From the IMG/VR virus record IMGVR_UViG_3300009059_000052, positions 1-26,379 of that record: a stretch of DNA of 26,379 nt; one strand, 5' to 3'. The position numbers and the translations under genes were made by a program. This document shows, one piece after another, positions 23,004 to 24,741 of the stretch (position 1 is the first letter of the stretch; each line of letters opens with the position of its first letter). Source of the stretch: a virus. The notes under the pieces are model-generated. The model had not been told where the DNA came from, did no database searches, and was given only the letters and a program-made list of their open reading frames with translations.

Positions 23004-23024
23004 TTTAAATAACTTACTTTTTAG

Positions 23025-23098
23025 TGCACCTTGCAGGAATCGAACCTGCGACCTACTGATTATGAGTCAGTTGCTCTAACCAATTGAGCTAAAGGTGC
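23025..23098 (-). tRNA. tRNA-Met (anticodon CAT)
   Basis: A complete 74-nt cloverleaf: acceptor GCACCTT/AAGGTGC, D-stem GCTC/GAGC, anticodon stem ACTGA/TCAGT around loop CTCATAA, and T-stem GCAGG/CCTGC with TTCGATT. The anticodon is at 23062-23064. CCA is not encoded. A CAT anticodon may also belong to the modified isoleucine tRNA that reads ATA, and sequence alone cannot separate the two. A host-type promoter ends 9 nt upstream. Confidence 0.93.
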
Positions 23099-23544: not shown

Positions 23545-23555
23545 TATAAACTAAG

Positions 23556-23629
23556 TACCCCTATCAGGGATCGAACCTGAAACCTACAGATTAGAAATCT
23601 GTTGCTCTATCCAGTTGAGCTATAGGAGC
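23556..23629 (-). tRNA. tRNA-Arg (anticodon TCT)
   Basis: A 74-nt cloverleaf: acceptor GCTCCTA/TAGGGGT with G-T wobbles at pairs 1 and 3, D-stem GCTC/GAGC, anticodon stem ACAGA/TCTGT around TTTCTAA, and T-stem TCAGG/CCTGA. The anticodon is at 23593-23595 and reads AGA codons, which are frequent in AT-rich genomes. CCA is not encoded. It lies 5 nt downstream of the tRNA-Leu-like gene and is probably processed from the same transcript. Confidence 0.92.
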
Positions 23630-23634
23630 ATATG

Positions 23635-23758
23635 TGGTCAAGGCAGGATTCGAACCTGCACGGGCTGCCAATATAGTAACCAGGATGTGTACACATACCA
23701 TTTTTTACCCACATTGCTATAACCATATGTCGCGTCTTACCAATTCCGCCACTTGACC
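23635..23758 (-). tRNA. tRNA-Leu-like gene with about 40 extra bases
   Basis: Both ends match a class II tRNA-Leu. The acceptor GGTCAAG/CTTGACC is perfect, the D-arm is leucine-like (GCGGAATTGGTAAGACGC) and the T-arm is perfect (GCAGG, TTCGAAT, CCTGC). The 71 nt between D-arm and T-arm is much longer than the usual 30 or so. No 5-bp stem with a 7-nt anticodon loop can be found in it. ACATA can pair with TATGT only across a loop of 28 nt. CCA is not encoded. It may be a tRNA with a small intron or insertion, a decayed gene, or a tRNA-like element. The anticodon cannot be assigned. Confidence 0.6.
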
Positions 23759-23759
23759 A

Positions 23760-23951
23760 TCAATCTTTTAGATTGTCATACTTACAACATGTCAAATAAT
23801 AATCAACTAGATTCTCTTTAGAAACGCTGATTCCTTTATGTAGTGTCCTTGTAACCACCACCCACAACTCATCTATGTGGGTGGTGATTGGTTCCAACTT
23901 CAGCTCTTCACTTATGAGCTGGTGTAATTCTTGTTTATTGTTAAGCTGCAT
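23760..23951 (-). CDS. Small unknown protein overlapping the DUF932 gene
   Basis: I choose the ATG at 23951 (63 residues, MQLNNKQELHQLISEELKLE) over an upstream in-frame ATG at 23981, because it overlaps the DUF932 stop by only 11 nt. The protein is helical with two adjacent cysteines near the C-terminus (YYLTCCKYDNLKD) and no known motif. Its stop lies 1 nt from the 5' end of the tRNA-Leu-like gene. A perfect 11-bp inverted repeat (23856-23886) is embedded in its coding sequence. The reading frame is plausible from tight packing, but I have no family evidence. Confidence 0.5.
   Translation of the reverse strand: MQLNNKQELHQLISEELKLEPITTHIDELWVVVTRTLHKGISVSKENLVDYYLTCCKYDNLKD
23856..23886. 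repeat. Perfect 11-bp inverted repeat inside a coding region
   Basis: CACCACCCACA (23856-23866) pairs with TGTGGGTGGTG (23876-23886) around a 9-nt loop. It is GC-rich in an AT-rich setting and sits about 100 nt upstream of the tRNA cluster on the transcribed strand. No T-run follows, so it is not a standard terminator. Confidence 0.8.
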
Positions 23952-24741
23952 ATTCAACTGCAAGTTCATATAGTTTAGCATTCAAATCAAGGTCTTGTTT
24001 AAAGTTCTTAATTTTTCTTGCTTTACGCAACTTGTTACCTGAGGTATATTCAAACATACCATGCACTAATTTTTCTTGAACTATATTAAACACACTCCAC
24101 AAATCATTACCCTGATCTTCAGGGCGAGTTGGCTCAATCAGTTTATCATAATCAATTGTAATGTTTTGAAGTTGTTCTACTCCGAATCGGATTACAGCTG
24201 CTTTCTTAGCAAATTCTTCGATTTGCTCTTTAACCAACTGTTTTCCTTTAAATCGATTCATTGATTCAACAGTCAATGGAAGTTTTTCTACCATTGAATT
24301 AATTACATTTGTCAATTCCTCAAAATTGTAACCATAGTGACGAATCTTAAGATTTTCAAACTCTTTAGAGCAAATAACCAAACCATTCTCGCACACCATA
24401 CGAAACAAACCAGCTGTAAAAGTAAATGCATTTTTACCATCATGGCTATTAGTAAGCAATACTTGTGGATAAGCACTGTCTCCGTCTGTACCTTCAATAA
24501 CAAGGTTATTATTGCGGAATACAACTAGGTGTTTTTGGTAACCCTCACCCTTACGGGCACGTACTTGTTTTGCATCAACTACTCCCCAACCTAGTTTCTC
24601 CATATCTTGAATAATTTGGTTGGTTGGAATGTGAGAATATTTTTCACTAGTACCTGGGGCACCTTTAGTAGTGAAGATTGAACTTGCTTGTTCACGAATT
24701 TGTGACTCGTTCAAAAAATTGTCGTTATTAATTTTTAACAT
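23941..24741 (-). CDS. DUF932 family phage/plasmid protein
   Basis: The 266-residue protein has the features of the DUF932 family: an N-terminal helix region, a strand-rich core with KHLVVFRNNNLVIEGTDGDS, then LLTNSHDGKNAFTFTAGLFR with MVCENGLVI after it, and a helical C-terminal half (EQIEEFAKKAAVIRFGVEQL, then DLWSVFNIVQEKLVHG). The TNSHDG...RMVCxNGLV sequence is the family core. The function is unknown; members are widespread in phages and plasmids. A host-type promoter lies 27 nt upstream, so it is probably expressed early by the host polymerase. The 5' leader before the ATG resembles that of the AT-hook-like gene. Confidence 0.82.
   Translation of the reverse strand: MLKINNDNFLNESQIREQASSIFTTKGAPGTSEKYSHIPTNQIIQDMEKLGWGVVDAKQVRARKGEGYQKHLVVFRNNNLVIEGTDGDSAYPQVLLTNSHDGKNAFTFTAGLFRMVCENGLVICSKEFENLKIRHYGYNFEELTNVINSMVEKLPLTVESMNRFKGKQLVKEQIEEFAKKAAVIRFGVEQLQNITIDYDKLIEPTRPEDQGNDLWSVFNIVQEKLVHGMFEYTSGNKLRKARKIKNFKQDLDLNAKLYELAVEYAA

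Follow-up and report, generated by a model that had tools for sequence, protein, structure and literature searches.

A conserved phage RNA of 124 nt, encoded on the minus strand at positions 23635-23758 of the window (the whole 26,379-nucleotide stretch of viral DNA analysed, IMG/VR record IMGVR_UViG_3300009059_000052), is very probably a tRNA-like molecule that does not decode, and comparison with its relatives identifies it as a putative leucine-type tRNA mimic belonging to a large family. Across these RNAs A73, U8, A14, the A15:U48 pair, the G18G19 elbow and the acceptor core U3-C4-A5 are kept, and the anticodon branch is a structured domain that is swapped by lineage; in the window type it consists of an anticodon-like hairpin and a 49-nt variable domain. 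Rather than taking part in translation, such an RNA probably serves to engage an enzyme that handles tRNAs or to divert it. The explanation that we favour overall, with confidence a little better than even, is a non-decoding mimic that is processed like a tRNA and serves as decoy or ligand of a tRNA-binding protein.

Genomic context of the tRNA-like RNA

The Rfam tRNA model matches the window at 23635-23758 (-) with 39.4 bits (E 3.3e-5; cut-off 29), which confirms the place and strand that a first-pass annotation of the DNA had given for a tRNA-like gene with an insertion. Model R1, in which the window sequence itself is included, scores the RNA at 148.8 bits. ARAGORN in normal mode reports only a tRNA-Met and a tRNA-Arg in the window and leaves the tRNA-like RNA uncalled, and with introns allowed it forces a tRNA-Ser with a 45-nt "intron" and a mispaired anticodon stem. 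The RNA, numbered so that RNA position p corresponds to window coordinate 23759-p and with the discriminator A73 included in its 124 nt, has the layout GGTCAAG TG GCG GAATTGGTAAGA CGC G ... GT GCAGG TTCGAAT CCTGC CTTGACC A.

The neighbouring genes lie on the same strand. Downstream, an ordinary tRNA-Arg (TCT; 23555-23629 (-)) follows after 5 nt and an ordinary tRNA-Met (CAT; 23024-23098 (-)) is found further on, both called by ARAGORN. Upstream, a gap of 1 nt separates the RNA from the stop codon of a conserved 73-aa gene (23760-23981 (-)), for which neither Pfam nor PHROG gave a match; the gap measures 1-7 nt in relatives with the gene. This small gene overlaps the end of a DUF932 gene (266 aa; 23941-24741 (-); Pfam PF06067, E 5.4e-30), the syntenic anchor of the comparisons below. 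An assembly error, which the first-pass annotation had considered, was rejected: the independent contig IMGVR_UViG_3300008996_000079 carries the identical RNA despite 32 mismatches (and no gaps) elsewhere in an overlap of 16.5 kb.

Fold of the window-type RNA

The minimum free energy of the window RNA as a single sequence is not better than that of shuffles (z -0.61), and the evidence for its fold is therefore comparative. In alignment A4, with 20 RNAs (19 distinct) of the window type, standard pairs occupy 99.4% of the base-pair cells on one structure (29-50% in slid controls), with double-sided changes at 10 pairs (43 cells; shuffles mean 10.7). The same helices were obtained for one RNA, L032, by energy folding alone. 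That 20 homologues hold the fold with compensatory changes excludes a chance resemblance and agrees with the earlier reading of the gene as not decayed, and the covarying fold supports the idea, also put forward there, of a novel structured insert.

All stems of the tRNA body are perfect in the window RNA, with 7 bp in the acceptor, 3 bp in the D and 5 bp in the T arm, as had been described. The 5' strand of the acceptor, GGTCAAG (23752-23758 (-)), pairs with CTTGACC (23636-23642 (-)), with double-sided changes of pairs 1 and 2 in relatives, and is followed at 23635 by A73; the CCA end is not encoded. The D arm (23732-23749 (-)) has a GCG/CGC stem, A14, A15, G18 and G19, and is the site of extra hairpins in relatives. 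In the T arm (GCAGG TTCGAAT CCTGC; 23643-23659 (-)), which covaries, the second pair is represented by three pair types among relatives; the U48 equivalent is found at 23660. The tertiary contacts of the acceptor/D/T body are present as judged from the conserved bases, and all tRNA-Leu identity bases (A73, D-T loop contacts, A15:U48) are found in the window RNA.

Between the D and T stems we counted 72 nt, not the 71 nt given earlier; about 30 nt is usual. The first-pass annotation had found no normal anticodon arm in this segment. The covariance check did reveal an anticodon-like arm at RNA positions 29-48 (23711-23730 (-)), so that the statement holds for an ordinary arm only: positions 29-32, a bulged A33 and positions 34-35 are paired with positions 43-48, giving 4 bp, a bulge and 2 bp, closed by the 7-nt loop GUUAUAG (23717-23723). 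In A4 100% of the cells of this arm are paired, with double-sided changes in five of the six pairs.

The remainder of the insert is a giant variable domain (RNA positions 49-97; 23662-23710 (-)) supported by covariation and RNAalifold, in which two hairpins are enclosed by the stem GGGU/GCCC (23707-23710 with 23662-23665), whose closing pair changes from G-C to A-U in relatives. One hairpin (23683-23699 (-)) contains the perfect palindrome ATGTGTACACAT, correctly noted before and located at RNA positions 63-74. Its stem covaries in alignment A1; in relatives the hairpin is swapped for other stems, and the palindrome itself is not conserved. The other hairpin (23667-23680 (-)) has the loop CUAUAA/U (23671-23676), whose complement UUAUAG occurs in the loop of the anticodon-like arm. 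Pairing of CUAUAA with UUAUAG is possible in 99.1% of the A4 cells, and four distinct sequences share a double change of one G-C pair to A-U, which may go back to a single event; most of the pairs do not vary, and one of them is a U-U mismatch in the window RNA. On the grounds of this complementarity and the one compensatory change, we propose a kissing interaction that would sequester the 7-nt loop, less secure than the helices. The hairpin with kissing loop replaces a pseudoknot-only model of the insert. Neither the arm nor its pairing with the variable arm had been seen in the first-pass annotation.

Relatives with swapped anticodon branches

Two genes, the DUF932 gene and one of 427 aa, served as protein queries for gathering loci, and further loci came from a DNA pattern; most of the contigs compared are metagenomic fragments. 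Among 26 loci with a DUF932 identity of at least 81%, some of them nearly identical to each other, 24 encode a tRNA-like RNA with a related acceptor 185-191 nt downstream of the DUF932 gene. The RNA is absent from the other two (L012 and L065), and it is therefore dispensable. More distant relatives have other versions of the RNA at or near the same place. Of the 21 loci checked, 18 have a stop codon 1-8 nt before the RNA (in L028 and L037, which lack the 73-aa gene, the DUF932 gene itself ends 8 nt before it), and both the window and several relatives have a tRNA-Arg within about 5 nt after it. Because the RNA is placed between a stop codon and a tRNA in this way, 5 nt before the tRNA-Arg in the window, and has an intact acceptor/T helix, we infer excision of the tRNA type: it would be released from a polycistronic mRNA-tRNA transcript by RNase P together with the enzymes that form tRNA 3' ends, and the CCA end would be added at processing.

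The anticodon branch takes several forms in these orthologues. In L028, L035 and L037 (93 nt) it is ACCA-GUAA-UGGU or ACCA-GCAA-UGGU, both with GNRA tetraloops, the variable arm is capped by GAAA, and compensatory changes are found among the three. A long hairpin with a GAG triloop takes the place of the branch in L025 and L026, yet another design is seen in L092 and L024, and L091 has an apparent short cap. Since the orthologues differ in this branch, decoding is not the conserved property; the same designs rule out an intron and make a decoding role very unlikely.

Many members have extra D-loop hairpins, inserted in every case after A15 and before the G18G19 region, and in a few (e.g. L062, L091) G18G19 is altered. 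The apices of the D-loop hairpins (L018, L022, L091, L092, L024, L062, L028, L041) are often self-complementary, e.g. CCATGG, TCTAGA, GACGTC, GTCGAC and GTAGCTAC. As noticed post hoc, these apices, like the palindrome of the window (23685-23696), might possibly mediate kissing-loop dimerisation.

A large family of RNAs with the same scaffold

The first-pass annotation had treated the gene singly, and the family to which it belongs was missed. A pattern of T arm and acceptor, CAGGTTCGANTCCTGTCCTGACTA, matched at least 120 IMG/VR stretches; together with the other loci the matches amount to at least 193 distinct RNAs, at least 168 of them with a recognised AGTCAGGT 5' end, and their lengths are mostly 70-190 nt. 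When other acceptor variants are included the number is at least 231, and 226 of these, clustered by insert, fall into at least 178 clusters. The family (AGTCAGG acceptor) has a shared scaffold and hypervariable middles. Its members, up to seven in one contig, are interspersed among real tRNA genes, and an ordinary tRNA-Leu is also present in many of the loci and contigs. Anticodons called by ARAGORN are scattered over the family with no consistent anticodon.

Conservation of the T arm and acceptor in the pattern-collected set is partly owed to the pattern itself, and loci picked by protein only constitute the unbiased test of the acceptor. In these loci the ordinary tRNAs have 92 different acceptor 7-mers in 128 RNAs, whereas the acceptors of RNAs without an anticodon arm are almost exclusively of the form [AG][GC]TCA[AG]G (AGTCAGG 13, GGTCAAG 12, GCTCAAG 5, AGTCAAG 4, ACTCAAG 3, GGTCAGG 1, ACAGGAG 1), the stragglers being mostly ordinary tRNAs that the sorting rule missed. 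Acceptor positions U3, C4, A5 and G7 are nearly invariant in the RNAs without the arm. Outside the search pattern, A14 (89%), A15 (89%), GG (92%) and U48 (83%) are conserved over the family; A73 is present in 98%. The whole set of Leu-type positions used is found in 69% of the at least 178 insert clusters, and 31% miss one. Compared with shuffles, the inserts fold with slightly higher stability (mean z of -0.64 over 142) and are enriched in GNRA loops (4.4% compared with 1.8%).

A 32-nt query of the AGTCAGG class gave no clear member in named phages among the best 60 of 801 matching records (50,697 searched), and the circular phage genome MW202828 has a variant with the acceptor AGTGCAG. In GTDB species genomes eight stretches match, all in metagenome-assembled genomes (MAGs) and mostly in Bacteroidota, perhaps as misbinned phage contigs. 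These matches, together with the likeness of a tRNA-Arg to the crAss-like phage cr126_1, suggest Bacteroidota as hosts. No published description of the family was found in openly licensed PMC papers.

Other unusual arrangements were observed in the material. A 62-kb contig with few obvious genes (L117) has a tRNA array in which ordinary tRNAs are mixed with several RNAs of the AGTCAGG type, of which the contig has seven. In MW202828 (L236) the AGTGCAG-acceptor RNA without a normal anticodon arm (520-627) is adjoined by a second, short tRNA-like match (634-694). In the crAss-like phage cr4_1 (NC_055893; L237) a segment at 1300-1530 starts with GGGGCAUUAUGGUUUUGACAGC and has a possible tag frame ending in YTRLAA and a stop codon, after which comes AGTAAG...CTTACTA, resembling the 3' end of a tRNA. 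A tmRNA at 1300-1530 was called by neither ARAGORN nor Rfam, and Rfam assigns 430-681 of the same sequence to a group I intron. The cultured Tenacibaculum phage pT24 (L238) has odd tRNA-like genes at 1290-1368, 1453-1525 and 1657-1735, two "tRNA-Undet" whose anticodon stem is extended and one "tRNA-Pro" in which the acceptor is mismatched.

Proposed role and alternatives

The acceptor core is constrained beyond the needs of leucylation and a normal tRNA-Leu is often carried along, and we therefore favour a non-decoding mimic whose acceptor and elbow bind protein. The constant acceptor/elbow face would be bound by a host or phage tRNA-handling protein, and the capped, replaceable anticodon side would exclude the RNA from decoding and from anticodon nucleases. 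It would thus act as decoy or ligand and not as an adaptor, most plausibly in a conflict between phage and host over tRNAs, though a decoy in such a conflict is put forward tentatively, with confidence well short of even. Charging by leucyl-tRNA synthetase (LeuRS) is plausible from the bases present and is not required. A search for a partner gene among 16 contigs found none (TROVE protein in one of the 16, T4-type RNA ligase in three). The variability of the inserts suggests diversification in an arms race. In a wider picture, to which we give somewhat less than even credence, phages of probably Bacteroidota would carry a large, unnamed class of RNAs with a constant tRNA-Leu-like chassis and domains exchangeable at the anticodon branch and D loop. 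These RNAs would evolve fast and oppose host enzymes directed at tRNAs, either as antagonists or as decoys; some might act as kissing-loop dimers and might be aminoacylated with leucine while serving no codon.

A leucine carrier is an unlikely alternative that deserves consideration: LeuRS would charge the anticodon-free mimic, and the Leu-RNA would feed a non-ribosomal reaction or occupy LeuRS or EF-Tu. The Leu-type determinants in most insert clusters and the almost general A73 speak for it. Furthermore, leucylation of E. coli tRNA-Leu survives the loss of its anticodon and variable arms as long as A73 and the D-T contacts are kept (PMC9976931), and tmRNA charged by AlaRS uses the same trick (PMC3985003). 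However, LeuRS has no need of the strongly conserved U3-C4-A5 core, one Leu position is missing in nearly a third of the clusters, the D arms of some members are not Leu-like, and no Leu-using partner gene is known.

Similarly improbable is a display scaffold, in which the swapped domain would be the active part, e.g. by binding protein or RNA, possibly dimerising via self-complementary loops, and the tRNA body would ensure that the RNA is processed and stable. The many insert clusters on a single scaffold, the somewhat higher structure and GNRA content of the inserts, and the palindromic apices of several D-loop hairpins would fit, but a mere stabiliser would not need a scaffold conserved in sequence (acceptor core) beyond its fold. 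Nor was an antisense target above chance found: the longest match to phage genes within the window is 11 nt, compared with a mean of 10.5 in shuffles.

Mere punctuation, i.e. a cleavage signal separating the mRNA end of the 73-aa/DUF932 genes from tRNA-Arg, would account for the close spacing to the stop codon. It is quite improbable, since it leaves the 49-nt covarying domain, the D-loop hairpins and the many copies within tRNA arrays (L117) unexplained, and the tRNA-Arg itself already offers a cut.

An odd decoding tRNA is just as doubtful. All type-A RNAs have U33 and A37 in the 7-nt loop, and a tRNA that carries Leu or Ile, has a giant variable arm and reads AUA through the anticodon UAU is conceivable in principle; on the other hand, the stem is bulged, the loop is proposed to pair with the variable arm, orthologues capped by GNRA tetraloops or a triloop are unable to decode, and the ARAGORN anticodons scatter through the family. 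The 5-bp anticodon stem, open loop and conserved anticodon of a functional elongator tRNA were not found, and that candidate was rejected.

A decayed or intron-containing tRNA-Leu, of which the latter is what ARAGORN proposes when introns are allowed, is hardly credible given the compensatory evolution in the 20-RNA alignment, the 93-nt orthologues without a removable segment and the variable loop of 2 nt that excision of positions 49-97 would leave. A group I intron was rejected, with no RF00028 match in the window at the Rfam gathering cut-off. Thus, of the three options in the first-pass annotation, the mini-intron falls, as no segment could be removed from the orthologues found at this place and the insert is conserved in structure and not in splice-like ends, while the structured insert and the tRNA mimic retained for its processing or for some other purpose are both supported.

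Phage tRNA genes are usually attributed to codon usage or to replacement of cleaved host tRNAs. More than 190 distinct non-decoding tRNA-like RNAs in the same arrays would fall outside these explanations, and annotation hides them, as ARAGORN omits members or assigns arbitrary anticodons. The family raises a testable question, namely by which protein the elbow and the acceptor core U3-C4-A5 are recognised during infection, and offers a natural set of more than 170 insert clusters of foreign domains that one tRNA body tolerates.

Comparison with known RNAs

At the RNA itself Rfam matched tRNA only, and tmRNA, Y RNA and other classes gave no match. Bacterial Y RNAs (YrlA) are non-coding RNAs with a tRNA-like module and have Ro60/TROVE proteins as partner. 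The tRNA mimicry of YrlA, mentioned in PMC7824862, is the feature shared with the phage RNA; identity with a Y RNA was rejected on the lack of an Rfam Y-RNA match and the single TROVE protein in the 16 contigs tested.

With tmRNA (SsrA) the phage RNA shares a tRNA acceptor and T arm, the lack of a decoding anticodon and a pseudoknot-containing domain at the place of the anticodon arm. In contrast to tmRNA, it has no tag reading frame, the insert being too short for a tag, it has a D stem, which tmRNA lacks, and it is of leucine type with U3-A70 instead of the alanine type with G3-U70. The phage RNAs are moreover mostly 70-190 nt long, hypervariable and present in several copies per phage. A tmRNA was rejected on the tag, the G3-U70 pair, the D stem and the missing Rfam tmRNA match.

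The tRNA cluster of phage T4 holds the stable RNAs C and D, and Bacillus cereus has a pseudo-tRNA. In kind, these resemble the phage RNA as non-tRNA or pseudo-tRNA genes, those of T4 lying inside a tRNA cluster. Allo-tRNAs and other non-canonical tRNAs, as covered in a review (PMC7609411), are likewise natural RNAs with unusual arms and long variable arms, but they decode and keep an anticodon arm, whereas the phage RNA lacks a conserved anticodon and its acceptor/T branch is of the normal 7/5 type; the passages of the review that were searched hold nothing like it. Minimal or class II tRNA-Leu has A73, A14, A15:U48, G18G19 and a Leu-type D loop in common with the phage RNA. Unlike it, the phage RNA is a natural gene with a replaced anticodon branch and a constrained acceptor core, carried in many loci beside a normal tRNA-Leu.
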